Source of the DNA: a virus
Reading direction: 5' to 3' (one strand)
Virus record (IMG/VR): IMGVR_UViG_3300040801_001904
Span: 1 to 57,819 of that record
DNA: 57,819 nucleotides
How positions within the stretch are numbered: the first letter of the stretch is position 1; every line of letters begins with the position of its first letter. The notes under the pieces were generated by a model that worked only from the letters and a program-made list of their open reading frames with translations, was not told where the DNA came from and made no database searches. Below, piece after piece: positions 10,557 to 57,819 of this stretch. Position numbers and translations under genes: made by a program.

Positions 10557-10754
10557 TTAAGTAATTATATAAGCAAAACTATTAGGATTAAGATTTATCA
10601 ATGCAACTTCAATATATTGAGAAGTTACATATGCTTCTGTTGTATCATTCAATAAAGCAACTTCAGCATTTTGTCTGGTTACATATGCTTCTGTTGTATC
10701 ATTCAATAAAGCAACTTCAGCATTTTGTCTGGTTACATATGCTTCATCAGCCAT
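10557..10754 (-). CDS. Short tandem-repeat tail-associated protein
   Basis: The 65-residue protein is almost wholly repeats. Two identical 18-residue units (EAYVTRQNAEVALLNDTT) and a third diverged unit (EAYVTSQYIEVALINLN) are followed by FAYIIT. It resembles the SKAVAYAVL-repeat gene at 4911-5234 in its V-x-x-x-x-x-V-A/V-L pattern and its hydrophobic end. It overlaps the start of its upstream neighbour's end by 8 bp and separates two paralogous lectin-like genes. It is probably a small virion or fibre-associated protein. No enzyme motif is visible. Confidence 0.5.
   Translation of the reverse strand: MADEAYVTRQNAEVALLNDTTEAYVTRQNAEVALLNDTTEAYVTSQYIEVALINLNPNSFAYIIT
10627..10745 (-). repeat. 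54-bp perfect tandem duplication
   Basis: The unit at 10627-10680 is repeated base for base at 10681-10734, followed by an 11-nt start of a third copy. Perfect identity over 54 bp in coding DNA implies a very recent slippage or duplication event. The unit encodes 18 residues in frame, so copy-number change would keep the protein readable. Confidence 0.92.
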
Positions 10755-11772
10755 TTAATATAAACCCCCATTGTATTGCATTTAACTTAGATACTGTCCA
10801 AGAGGTATCATCAGGACAAAGACCAAAAGTATCTATTAAAGCATATCCATGACCATCTATCCATTCAAGATTTAAACTTTTAGAATCATGATTACGTTCA
10901 ACAGAATCTTGTTTACTCATATGCTGTAATGATCTTGCTACACCAGAGGTCTTTCTTGCATATGTAACTAAAGTAACACCTTTTATAGTATTATTATTTA
11001 AAGTTAATGGTTGATAACCAAACAATTCTTTATCACCAACATTATTTGATTCAAGTATTGTAACATCATTATCAATTGAAGCTTCATCTACCATTGCATA
11101 ATTATCTACACCAGTAGAAGGGGTAAATTGATTTACATCTCCATCTGCATTGGGATATAAAACTTGAGAATACAATTCACCTTGAAAATCATCAGCTACA
11201 TATAAATTATCCATATAAAAAGAACTACCAGTACCACTTGAACACCACATTACTTTAGTAATATCTCCACCATCTGTATTTATACCTGTTAAATTTAATA
11301 CAACAGATCCATTAACTTTAACCTGTATATAACCAGTAGAAGCATTACTAAATAATTTACATTCAAAATGGTTAATAGAATTAGAATCATATAAATAACC
11401 TGTATTAAGAGAACTGCCAAGTAAAGTTGAATAAGTTCCTCTAAACGCTTTCCAACCTGTGGTATAGCATTGAACAAAAATAGGAGTACTTCCAGCAACT
11501 ATAAATCTAAAAGTATTTAAATAATAATAGTTTTCAGTTTGTTGATCCATATGTCTGTTATTTCGTTTATGAAAACCAGCACAAACTGTTTTTAAACCAG
11601 AAGGTAGATTTTTATCAACAGCAAATCCAGAATAACCTCCTAAACATTTTGAAGAATTATATCCATTAGAAGAATTGTAAATTATTGAAGTATGATGAGA
11701 ATCATCTAAAAGCTGATTTACCGACATACTATTACTACAACCTTCAAATCCCGTAAAGAAATATAAAGCCAT
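10747..11772 (-). CDS. Lectin-like (concanavalin-fold) tail protein, paralogue 3
   Basis: This 341-residue paralogue of 9539-10543 has the same start (LYFFTGFEGCSNS), the same VKVNGSVVLNLTG hairpin, the same ADDFQGELYSQVLYPNADGD linker and the same SGVARSLQHMSKQDSVER segment. Divergence is concentrated in the first 200 residues, the presumed ligand-binding sandwich, whereas the C-terminal half is strongly conserved. That pattern suits receptor-binding proteins under diversifying selection on a common attachment domain. A tail-fibre or tail-tip role is inferred from context. Confidence 0.62.
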   Translation of the reverse strand: MALYFFTGFEGCSNSMSVNQLLDDSHHTSIIYNSSNGYNSSKCLGGYSGFAVDKNLPSGLKTVCAGFHKRNNRHMDQQTENYYYLNTFRFIVAGSTPIFVQCYTTGWKAFRGTYSTLLGSSLNTGYLYDSNSINHFECKLFSNASTGYIQVKVNGSVVLNLTGINTDGGDITKVMWCSSGTGSSFYMDNLYVADDFQGELYSQVLYPNADGDVNQFTPSTGVDNYAMVDEASIDNDVTILESNNVGDKELFGYQPLTLNNNTIKGVTLVTYARKTSGVARSLQHMSKQDSVERNHDSKSLNLEWIDGHGYALIDTFGLCPDDTSWTVSKLNAIQWGFILNG

Positions 11773-49566: not shown

Positions 49567-49601
49567 GAGTTAAATGTTAAACACAATGTTTATTTTAACT
49601 C
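49567..49601 (-). promoter_or_regulatory. Imperfect hairpin between homing endonuclease and portal genes
   Basis: GAGTTAAA (49567-49574) pairs with TTTAACTC (49594-49601), with extra inner pairing possible. It touches the stop of the HNH gene and precedes the portal ribosome site. No U run follows on the minus strand. It may isolate the intruding endonuclease gene from its neighbour or be incidental. Confidence 0.4.
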
Positions 49602-50170
49602 TATTTTTGGATAGTTTTAAGTTTAAACCTTAAACCTTGTCTATCCTGGTATTGAAAATTGATATAGGCATATTCATCAAAATGCTTCAAAGCAAGACGA
49701 TCATATGCAATTGCAGCTTCAAGTTCAGTAGCAAAGCTTTTATAATAGCGTTTTCTATTAATAGTAATAACCATTTTATAGTAAATACTTATATTCTTTT
49801 TTCCATTATACTTAATAATTCTTACACCCTTATAATTAGATGCAGTTTTTTGTAAGCATTTTCTGGAATTCCAATTATTCTGAGTAGGTGTAACTATTCT
49901 CAAATTCTTTCTACGATTATCAAGTCCATTATGATTTCTGTGATCAACATAAACATCATCAGATACATTCATTATTAAACGAGACATTCTAATATAATGA
50001 GCCTTATTTTCAGATCGTAAACCATATCGTTGTCTTCTACTTACATAATAATGAATTCTACCACTATTTCTTTCATGTTTTTCAACACACCATTTCCATT
50101 GATTTAGATAATCAAAATCTTCATCATCAACAAGTGCAAACTGATTTTGAGTAAGAGGTATCTTTTTCAT
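49601..50170 (-). CDS. HNH homing endonuclease with AP2 DNA-binding domain
   Basis: The 189-residue protein has an HNH motif (VDHRNHNGLDNRRKNLRI, residues 75-92) followed by an AP2-like domain at about 110-171 (SNYKGVRI, then KSFATELEAAIAYDRLA). This is the architecture of free-standing phage homing endonucleases of the HNH-AP2 type. It cuts and converts sites in related phages that lack the gene, by family knowledge. It sits between terminase large subunit and portal, a common insertion point, and is spaced by only 18 and 57 bp from the two. No remnants of an intron were seen. Confidence 0.88.
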   Translation of the reverse strand: MKKIPLTQNQFALVDDEDFDYLNQWKWCVEKHERNSGRIHYYVSRRQRYGLRSENKAHYIRMSRLIMNVSDDVYVDHRNHNGLDNRRKNLRIVTPTQNNWNSRKCLQKTASNYKGVRIIKYNGKKNISIYYKMVITINRKRYYKSFATELEAAIAYDRLALKHFDEYAYINFQYQDRQGLRFKLKTIQK

Positions 50171-53099: not shown

Positions 53100-55613
53100 A
53101 TGAAAGAGATATTAGAATATAACCGCACCGCATGTCAAGAAGAATTTGACGACCAGCCTGGATTTTATTCCCTCAATCGCCAATTCATTCAGGAATGTTC
53201 TGAATTTGTTTGCAATATTAATGATTTGGAAGATTCTCCCTGGAAGAACAAAGATATAGTCCAATGGATCAGGGGGGATTTGAAATGTCAGATTGGACAC
53301 ATCGAAGTAAAACTACTGAAGTTCCTGCAACAAGAATACTTCCTAAAAGACTCTCCGTGTTTCTGTAAGCACAAATACATTGCAGAAAGATTAGAAACAG
53401 GAATCTCTTCTATCAATGCTGCCATAAACAGTTTGGACAAAAAGGGATTCTTAATCAAAATCTCATGGATTTATAAAGGAAGACGCATGAACACCATGCT
53501 GCTTCCTCAGATTCCAGCCCTTGTGGATCTCATCGACCAAAAGAACTATGATAACAAAGAATATAGAAAGATCTACAACAAATTCCGTAAGTTATTTACT
53601 CGTAATAGTGTTGCAATAAACAAGAAAAGGGAACAAAGGGAGTCTGAAAATATAGAACATACAAAAACAACCAATAAGTTATTGAAAACACAGCAAGTAA
53701 AAAACCCATTACTTAGATACTCTAATATACTATATATTAATACACTATTTAATAATAACTTGGTTACTATAAATACTGTATTGATTAACAGTAGTATCTT
53801 TATTTGTAGACAAATAGCAACTTTGGGAAAAAGCCCCAAAGTTGCCTCTTGTTCTGATAATACTTCTTCTTCAAAAACCACTACGATTGATAATCATAAA
53901 GTAGATACACATATTGATTCCAATGAAGATGTGGTTATTAACAAGGGGCTTGATTCTAACCAAACATATCCTCGTTTTGGATCTAAAGAAGCTTTTGTTG
54001 ATATTAAGGAGCTTAATTTAAACAAGGAGCTTGATTCTAATCAACCAGATCCATGCTTTGGTTATAAAGAAGCTTTGGTTATAAACAAGGAGCTTGATCT
54101 GAACAAGGAGCTTGATTCTAATCAATCAGATATTGAAGAGTTTGATTATGTACCTCCTCGCAAATATAAGCGTAAAAATAGAACTGAAGATTATAGATGG
54201 CTCAATGATAAAGAATTAAATGCTTGGATGTATCAGTTGAATAAGGAGAGTACAACACAGTTTACATATCATCAAAAGGTTGAGTTTCTAAAGCAACAAA
54301 AGGAAGAAGAACAAAGGTTGATAGATGAGAGGAATCAAAAGATAATCAAGAATAAGCCTGTCGCAGTAATTGATTATCCTTCAATTCCTGATCATGAAAA
54401 TAGGTTTAAGACTATTCTTAATCAAGAGCGGAATCTAATTGATGAATTATTGGCCGATAATCTTCTAAATGAGGTTAAGAGTAGTATTATGCTTGATAGA
54501 CATCTTCTAAAACGCAAAATACGCAATGAACGCTTCATGCAAAAAGACATGGTTAAGCGTTTGGCTGATAATGATTATGATTTTGATAAAATCCCTGTAT
54601 ATGATCAAAATTGCTTCAATGATTATATTTCATGCTTTCATAGCATTGATATGAAAATCCATTTCAAAATTCCATCAGATCCAGAAAGAAGAAAGAAAAC
54701 TTATCATAATTATGCCATCAATGTTCGTCGTTGTCTTCTCAGGTTAATATCAACCGGCAATGAAATTGAATGGGATTATGCAGACAAGGTTATTGAGTAT
54801 TGGAACAAATTGCCAATCAGTTCAGGAGGGCTTCAAAAGGTTCGGATAGGGTCGAAGGATAGCAAGGCATATATAAACGCCGCCATCGTCATCTCCGATT
54901 GCCTCATTCATGGTGCAAACCGGAACCTGAATACCATGTTCAAGGCAATGGACCGATTGGTAACTGCTGAAGAATGGAAAAAGCCTCCTTTCAATTGGAT
55001 AAACAATAAACCCACCATTGACCGATTCTTCATGATCAATGAAAAGAACAAACTGATACAAACCTATTTTGGAAATGATATTGATTTTGAGAAATTCATT
55101 TACGCAAAGAAATACAAGAAGAAGAATCTGAAACGTTTGGAAGTCGGATATGAAAAGTTCACAGAATTATATGTTAATCAATTCTATGGTAACAACATAG
55201 AAAAAGGCAAAGAAGTTTGTTATCGCTTTGAACATATGATCAAGAATTGGCTTGAAGAAAAGATTGAAGATATAAAGAATACGTGCCATAAATCAGGACA
55301 GATGAAAAGAAAGCTTTACAATTATAGTCTTATCACAGATCGTCAAAATGAATATGGTAACATCCCTCCTTTACTTCAGAGATTCTTTTATTACATTAAC
55401 AGAAAATACCAAGGTTCAATAACCTTTGTGGATATGTTTACCGATAAGACCTGGAATGATTTCATTATAAACCATATGCAGATAGAAGTCGGATTGACCG
55501 ATTTTTGGGAGCCGATCCGAATCAAGAGAAACGGCAATGGTAAAGGGGGAAAGGAAATAAACCATGTTACAGCACGAAGCACCCGATATACAAGAATTCC
55601 TGCGATTGCCTGA
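53100..55613 (+). CDS. Large winged-helix protein, candidate replication initiator
   Basis: The 837-residue protein has a likely winged helix-turn-helix at about residues 64-135 (CKHKYIAERLETGISSINAA, then KKGFLIKISWIYKGRR), like the DNA-binding half of phage replication initiators such as lambda O. A low-complexity linker (about 190-345) has 27-residue repeats (NKELDSNQ units). The rest is a large alpha-helical region (RRCLLRLISTGNEIEWDYAD, WINNKPTIDRFFMIN) that I could not assign. A ribosome site (AAGGAAGGG) precedes the ATG. The gene follows an attenuator-like terminator. Its C-terminal domain is of unknown function; another replication or DNA-binding role is possible. Confidence 0.55.
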   Translation: MKEILEYNRTACQEEFDDQPGFYSLNRQFIQECSEFVCNINDLEDSPWKNKDIVQWIRGDLKCQIGHIEVKLLKFLQQEYFLKDSPCFCKHKYIAERLETGISSINAAINSLDKKGFLIKISWIYKGRRMNTMLLPQIPALVDLIDQKNYDNKEYRKIYNKFRKLFTRNSVAINKKREQRESENIEHTKTTNKLLKTQQVKNPLLRYSNILYINTLFNNNLVTINTVLINSSIFICRQIATLGKSPKVASCSDNTSSSKTTTIDNHKVDTHIDSNEDVVINKGLDSNQTYPRFGSKEAFVDIKELNLNKELDSNQPDPCFGYKEALVINKELDLNKELDSNQSDIEEFDYVPPRKYKRKNRTEDYRWLNDKELNAWMYQLNKESTTQFTYHQKVEFLKQQKEEEQRLIDERNQKIIKNKPVAVIDYPSIPDHENRFKTILNQERNLIDELLADNLLNEVKSSIMLDRHLLKRKIRNERFMQKDMVKRLADNDYDFDKIPVYDQNCFNDYISCFHSIDMKIHFKIPSDPERRKKTYHNYAINVRRCLLRLISTGNEIEWDYADKVIEYWNKLPISSGGLQKVRIGSKDSKAYINAAIVISDCLIHGANRNLNTMFKAMDRLVTAEEWKKPPFNWINNKPTIDRFFMINEKNKLIQTYFGNDIDFEKFIYAKKYKKKNLKRLEVGYEKFTELYVNQFYGNNIEKGKEVCYRFEHMIKNWLEEKIEDIKNTCHKSGQMKRKLYNYSLITDRQNEYGNIPPLLQRFFYYINRKYQGSITFVDMFTDKTWNDFIINHMQIEVGLTDFWEPIRIKRNGNGKGGKEINHVTARSTRYTRIPAIA
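53690..54121 (+). other. Candidate replication origin inside the initiator-like gene
   Basis: An AT-rich segment (53690-53816) is followed by an 11-bp hairpin (GCAACTTTGGG at 53817-53827, CCCAAAGTTGC at 53835-53845). Then come five 20-nt direct repeats with consensus AACAAGGAGCTTGATTCTAA at 53940, 54003, 54021, 54084 and 54102. Copies 2/3 and 4/5 are 18 bp apart, and the unit at 53940, 54021 and 54102 has an 81-bp period. The lambda origin has the same plan (iterons of 18 bp plus AT-rich DNA inside gene O). The origin role is inference; the repeats also encode the protein linker. Confidence 0.42.
53940..54121 (+). repeat. 81-bp tandem repeat with 18-bp sub-repeats
   Basis: About 2.3 copies of an 81-bp unit (27 codons) start at 53940, 54021 and 54102. 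Each later unit is preceded by a second copy of the same 18-20 nt element. In protein the units read NKGLDSNQ, NKELDSNQ and NKELDSNQ with intervening YPRFGSKEA/DPCFGYKEA. The unit length is a multiple of three, so copy changes remain in frame. Confidence 0.85.
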
Positions 55614-57171: not shown

Positions 57172-57819
57172 ATGTTTACATTACCGAATTACAATCTTCT
57201 CAACGTTGCTGTAATAGGTGATGTTCTTTTGGATGTTTATTACGATTGTAAAATAGAAAGAATATCTCCAGAAGCACCCGTTTTAATCGCCAAAACCAAT
57301 TGCAATCAGAAAAAGATGGCATTAGGTGGTGCTGCCAATGTTGCCAACAATTGTGCTGGATTAAAAGCAAATGTGGATCTTTATGGTATTGTTGGTTACG
57401 ATAAAACCGCAGTTGAAATGAAACAATTATGTGATGCCAAAAACATCAAAGCTCATTTCTATGCTTCAGAAAACGTTTCCACTATTCACAAGGTACGTTA
57501 CAAGAAAGATCATAATCAGGTAATAAGAATCGACTTTGAAGGAGATAAAAGACCGTATAAAGTAGATGCAAGACTCTATTACAAACTGCAAGATGATTTC
57601 TTTGATAACGTTGAAAAATACCATCTGGTTATTCTATCAGATTACAATAAAGGTACGTTGAAAGAATACTTATGTCAAAATATAATCAATAAATGCAATG
57701 CTTATAATATTCCCATATTTGTTGATCCAAAAGGTGTTTCATGGGGTAAATATGATCGGGCTACCTGTTTAACTCCAAATCTCAGAGAGTTTCAGCAAAT
57801 GGTTTCTGAGGATATTACC
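57172..57819 (+). CDS. hldE: D-beta-D-heptose 7-phosphate kinase (HldE N-terminal domain), 3' end outside window
   Basis: The first 216 residues are visible. The PfkB-family sugar kinase pattern is clear: VAVIGDVLLDVYYDCKIERI with ISPEAPVL; GGAANVANN; VRYKKDHNQVIRIDFEG; ILSDYNKGTLK; VDPKG and LTPNLREF. These match the N-terminal kinase domain of HldE/RfaE, which phosphorylates D-glycero-D-manno-heptose 7-phosphate at C1 on the way to ADP-heptose. The gene is cut by the window edge, so it is not known whether the C-terminal nucleotidyltransferase domain is present. In bacteria this is a core LPS pathway; finding it in a phage with two GT9 genes is notable. Ribosome site: AAAGGACGATAATCA. Confidence 0.85.
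   Translation, partial: MFTLPNYNLLNVAVIGDVLLDVYYDCKIERISPEAPVLIAKTNCNQKKMALGGAANVANNCAGLKANVDLYGIVGYDKTAVEMKQLCDAKNIKAHFYASENVSTIHKVRYKKDHNQVIRIDFEGDKRPYKVDARLYYKLQDDFFDNVEKYHLVILSDYNKGTLKEYLCQNIINKCNAYNIPIFVDPKGVSWGKYDRATCLTPNLREFQQMVSEDIT

Follow-up and report, generated by a model that had tools for sequence, protein, structure and literature searches.

A candidate replication-initiation site in the linker DNA of an initiator-like gene from an uncultivated phage group

The DNA considered here, termed the window, is the whole stretch analysed, the 57,819 bases of IMG/VR record IMGVR_UViG_3300040801_001904, classed as linear. Its replication-initiator-like gene (Table 1) encodes a product of three parts, an N-terminal winged-helix region, a long disordered linker and an all-helical C-terminal domain, and it is the linker DNA, with its AT-rich tract, hairpins and repeats (the module), that is of main concern. 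The terminase, portal and head genes of the window are divergent from this gene, with those for the small and large terminase subunits about 1-3 kb from the module and one other gene between. The left end of the window encodes a primase and two helicases, one of them DnaB-like. Judged by eye, a 189-aa ORF between portal and terminase (49601-50170, minus strand) has the look of an HNH-type homing endonuclease, and an ORF at the right end (about 57217-57819, plus strand) resembles a sugar-kinase (RfaE/HldE-like) protein, as do ORFs near the initiator-like gene in two relatives (L009, 4249-5298; L077, 1874-2935). Elsewhere, TRF reports a 54-bp tandem repeat at 10624-10764 whose initial 2.3 copies are perfect, and a sub-threshold Rfam match to MIR390, on the opposite strand at 55275-55390, was taken as chance.

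Table 1. Features of the initiator-like gene and its linker DNA, in window coordinates
Feature	Position	Strand	Basis
Replication-initiator-like gene, 837 aa	53100..55613	+	ORF; syntenic homologues beside terminase in ~16 loci
Winged-helix DNA-binding region, ~aa 46-137	53235..53510	+	Family alignments; HTH_36
AT-rich tract, candidate DNA-unwinding element	53705..53765		Low GC; same position in relatives
Hairpin 1, TATTTGTAGACAAATA, smaller	53801..53816		Hairpin scan; relatives have a hairpin at this position
Hairpin 2, 11-bp stem, GCAACTTTGGG/CCCAAAGTTGC, loop AAAAAGC	53817..53845		Hairpin scan; relatives have a second hairpin here
Window-specific insert, ~200 codons (~600 bp)	53865..54473	+	Alignment gaps in all homologues; boundaries approximate
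81-bp tandem array with five in-frame 18-nt units	53940..54131	+	TRF and repeat search
Seven quasi-palindromic NAAG-RRG-CTTN' sites, candidate initiator sites	53941..54115		Complementary flanks; shuffle test
All-helical C-terminal domain, with candidate internal start	54489..55610	+	SD and ATG; structure model

The protein of the window has weak family matches only, its own match to HTH_36 being at E 0.1 with the best in the family at 9.9e-8. Across the 21 family rows, Pfam matches are to HTH_36 (11), DnaD_N (8) and, weakly, Phage_rep_O (3); for the last of these (PF04492) the family best is E 0.001, and the window protein is not among the matches at E <= 1. Family members also match replication-initiation families in PHROG. 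In a structure model of the L006 homologue (mean pLDDT 74), the winged-helix region is predicted with confidence, the linker spanning the module is disordered and the C-terminal domain is entirely helical. A fold search with the whole protein gave no match at E <= 0.001; replisome organizers and lambda O types are among the weak hits in a viral fold library, and the N-domain on its own leads to MarR-type regulators. An initiator-type winged-helix domain is accordingly encoded upstream of the candidate site within the same gene. The C-terminal domain of the window has no PDB fold match at E <= 0.001, and since it matches no solved fold, a part for it in helicase loading is a guess.

Searching with the protein directly in IMG/VR, GTDB genomes and INPHARED found nothing, and among the known phages of INPHARED no sequence match was found. 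Relatives were obtained via terminase scans followed by tblastn inside the loci. Syntenic homologues come from L004, L006, L009, L010, L012/L013, L017, L018, L025, L026, L039, L045, L046, L050/L051, L052, L053, L060, L063 and L077, plus fragments, and, because some of these loci are near-duplicates, amount to about 16 distinct ones. The nearest to the window is L039, with 34% identity over its two matched stretches, and a scan with the window/L039 alignment revealed no relative closer than it. The gene is split in L026, L046 and L053, where one ORF encodes the N-terminal part and another the C-terminal part. The contig of L077 (JAHWGK010000034.1) was binned in a Thermoplasmata MAG, which may mean a misbinned phage contig or may be a clue to the host. 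In the record that includes L026 (G002), a single open frame of 888 aa at C1:25127-27361 aligns to the DnaB-like helicase query as two segments, and the insert of roughly 400 codons between query residues 80 and 79 is a possible intein.

The AT-rich tract of the window includes the 50 nt of lowest GC in the linker (53708-53757, 14% GC) and codes for (N)ILYINTLFNNN, the piece of the linker best conserved against L039. The hairpin with the 11-bp stem was described in the first-pass annotation and is indeed present, the surrounding region (53790-53860) having a DNA folding z of -4.9. The AT tract and the hairpins are the parts of the window judged homologous to the module of the relatives. In these, DNA at the same place in the linker follows a pattern, with exceptions, in which short repeats (direct, inverted or both) precede an AT tract and the tract is followed in most cases by two hairpins. 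L006, L009, L018 and L010 are examples of relatives whose repeats come just before the AT tract. (For L004, L010, L046 and L053, the AT tract was taken from the displayed sequence since the segment of lowest GC in the scan was located 5' of the repeats.) With a stem of at least 6, a hairpin scan found both hairpins in most relatives, one in L017, L050/L052 and L063, and none in L025 and L039, both of which can be folded by eye into longer hairpins with interruptions. The first hairpin of the relatives usually has a TTC or TAC triloop with C-G closure, and the loop of the second is often A-rich. In many (e.g. L026, L046, L050, L053 and L009) the first loop is C-TTC-G, which on the bottom strand is C-GAA-G, an unusually stable DNA mini-hairpin motif; a literature search for this motif found no phage-origin paper.

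Repeat sequence agrees within each phage and differs between phages. The repeat unit of L006, L009, L018 and L050 combines AAA(C/T)GG with a variable part; each linker contains it twice in direct orientation and once inverted, at distances of 21 and 24 bp. With the inverted copy included, identity of the variable part in these four is 92% within a phage vs 46% between phages, and the residues that the repeats encode differ from phage to phage. Longer arrays of AAACGG-type sites are present in L010, L017, L077 and L004, and an inverted pair flanks a G-run in L053, L046 and L045. Four copies occur in L063, in more than one reading frame, and four in L025, in two frames (both by eye on displayed translations); L039 has an inverted pair only. 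Among the fused relatives, all but L039 have more direct 10-mer matches than synonymously recoded versions of their protein (P 0.001-0.05), and most have more inverted ones. With the split genes, for which the null is a plain base shuffle, only inverted matches exceed it. There, in L026, L046 and L053, the AT tract and hairpins are intergenic, the repeat pair being only partly so: the pair of L053 is contained in the final part of the first ORF, and that of L045 spans the stop codon. Within-phage agreement, use of several frames, the synonymous shuffles and the split genes all point to conservation of the repeats at the DNA level in the relatives; for the window, the corresponding indications are mixed.

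The window's own repeats were what first drew attention. Five units of 18-20 nt in an 81-bp tandem array, adjacent to an AT-rich tract and bound by the encoded protein as iterons of a lambda-like origin, had been proposed in the first-pass annotation. The array was recovered by TRF (81-bp x 2.4, score 256, 83% matches) and by a second repeat search, which gave the same 81-bp copies at 78-87%, so that the counts and coordinates, and the location inside the linker of the gene, hold. AAGGAGCTTGAT, allowing at most one mismatch, occurs 7 times in the window vs about 0 expected, with 5 of the 7 inside the array. The claimed adjacency fails, as about 180 bp and two hairpins separate the end of the AT tract from the first repeat. 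The array is in an insert between the hairpins and the C-terminal domain, which relatives lack, and so is downstream of the hairpins whereas the repeats of the relatives are upstream of the AT tract, which tells against the proposed iterons. Looking for hidden repeats 5' of the AT tract in the window yielded weak matches only, none resembling the repeats of the relatives. AAGGAG within the repeats was considered as a set of Shine-Dalgarno sites and rejected, there being no in-frame start at the usual spacing downstream. Little weight attaches to the 18-bp length match to lambda iterons.

A rival explanation that comes close to an even chance, falling slightly short of it, is that the 81-bp repeats are a coding tandem duplication and nothing else, the real cis element being the AT tract, the hairpins and some unrecognised site. 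All five short units (starting at 53940, 54003, 54021, 54084 and 54102) are in a single reading frame, as befits a 27-codon in-frame duplication, and the insert is missing in relatives and misplaced with respect to the AT tract. Between two 81-bp copies, dN is 0.18 and dS 0.70 (27 codons), with the result that synonymous sites look freer, as in a coding repeat. Such freedom had been named in advance as a sign against the origin proposal. The five 15-nt cores, however, have zero synonymous changes. A further point against mere duplication is that seven NAAG-RRG-CTTN' dyads describe the array better than the 18-nt units do. The dyad centres (53947, 53990, 54010, 54028, 54071, 54091 and 54109) are spaced 43/20/18/43/20/18, two of the seven are read in another frame, and seven is more than synonymous shuffles provide (P = 0.0002). 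Of ten AAGRRGCTT sites in the whole window, 7 are within the array. The first flanking bases are complementary in all seven array dyads vs 15 of 41 AAGNNNCTT sites elsewhere, evidence that is suggestive only, because the array copies duplicate one another and just about three flank types (C-G, T-A and A-T) are independent. The dyad structure and the out-of-frame copies are a hint of DNA-level function, and for this iteron-like array the choice between putative initiator sites and coding duplication is about even.

A different type of signal is present at the start of the C-terminal domain. After removal of near-duplicates, 11 of 13 fused homologues have there an in-frame ATG preceded by a Shine-Dalgarno match of at least 5 nt; of 106 in-frame ATGs elsewhere inside the genes, only 3 have such a match (Fisher P = 3e-11, a value overstated since the sequences are related and the candidate starts were chosen after the alignment had been seen). 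Better support for the candidate start is that the internal starts correspond to the beginnings of the C-terminal ORFs in L026, L046 and L053. The ATG of the window (54489) is a weak instance, with GAGGT 13 nt upstream. The combination suggests that a C-terminal protein is separately made.

GC skew had been put forward as a check on the location of an origin. The cumulative minimum is no more than about 2 kb from the gene in three relatives, G001 (107,962 bp with a 144-bp terminal repeat), G005 and G002, yet it follows gene strand. G001 and G002 are the longest two of the records, and both have terminal repeats. Skew at third positions at first appeared to track the replication arm, but in a regression on fourfold sites none of the three genomes showed an effect of arm, and two (G001 and G005) showed one of strand. 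Gene orientation therefore suffices for the skew, which is not independent evidence for an origin, and this line was dropped.

Taken together, the product is probably an initiator of the lambda O / SPP1 gp38 type whose linker DNA doubles as a cis-acting initiation site, the likeness to these proteins being the best reading and not proof of membership. That part of the initial proposal which placed an origin in the gene is favored by the linker module of the relatives and the initiator-like N-domain; the part that cast the noted repeats as its binding sites suffers from their not being at the relatives' position. That the module is an operator or other regulatory element, serving autoregulation or hairpin control of the C-terminal protein, and not an origin, is unlikely, even though the repeats resemble sites for winged-helix regulators, the fold search with the N-domain leads to MarR-type regulators and the hairpins are just 5' of the internal start. 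The site is in the middle of a gene and not at a promoter, an operator has no need of an AT tract in the same order, the family matches name replication initiators, and iterons next to AT-rich DNA in an initiator gene reproduce the arrangement of known phage origins (PMC7466680, PMC6316719). Proximity to the genes for both terminase subunits raises the thought of a packaging (pac) or partition site, which is very improbable: the gene that hosts the module has an initiator-type DNA-binding domain, another gene separates the module from terminase, and nothing in the data links it to packaging.

If the module is an initiation site, the winged-helix domain would bind the repeats and the AT tract next to them would melt, with the C-terminal domain, both fused and as a separate product, perhaps helping to load the DnaB-type helicase of the phage. 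The hairpins may serve, as single-stranded or extruded DNA, in loading or priming. In the window, a new dyad array would have arisen downstream and may have taken over as binding sites. A more elaborate version, possible but on balance doubtful, has the origin as the seam joining a DNA-binding protein (N-terminal) to a helical one (C-terminal), which some phages encode in two genes and others in one; where they are one, the frame would have been kept open across the module with the conserved internal start still yielding the C-terminal protein alone. The sites would drift in concert within a phage, and in the window they would have given way to a new dyad array on the opposite flank of the AT tract.

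Were the initiation-site reading true, an uncultivated group of phages of about 110 kb would carry origins inside their initiator genes, and comparison among them would reveal joint change of initiator and DNA sites, fission or fusion of a gene about its origin and, possibly, turnover of binding sites. They would provide a natural series for coevolution of an initiator and its site while that site must also encode protein.

Parallels with characterized systems are partial. The origin of phage lambda is mid-gene O and has four 18-bp iterons, which are imperfect inverted repeats, joined to a 38-bp AT-rich sequence (PMC3349717, PMC7466680). Shared with it are a site in the middle of the initiator gene and an N-terminal DNA-binding part followed by a C-terminal interaction part. 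However, the window protein lacks a confident Phage_rep_O match, the C-terminal domain here is much larger, the AT tract is followed by two hairpins and an internal start, the phage has its own DnaB-like helicase, and in the window the repeats are downstream of the AT tract and not joined to it. For a single rep gene with two in-frame Rep products there is a counterpart in plasmid pIGRK, for which antagonistic function is reported (PMC6854812); the plasmid is unrelated, and antagonism is not implied for the phage gene. With SPP1, oriL is inside gene 38 and has direct repeats and an AT-rich unwinding element, and another origin, oriR, is about 13 kbp from it (PMC6316719), whereas a partial search of the relatives' genomes, each with its own repeat, found no second repeat cluster. 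Repeats and an AT-rich element within an initiator gene, in a phage that encodes its own DnaB-family helicase, are nevertheless common to SPP1 (PMC6316719) and the phages considered here.
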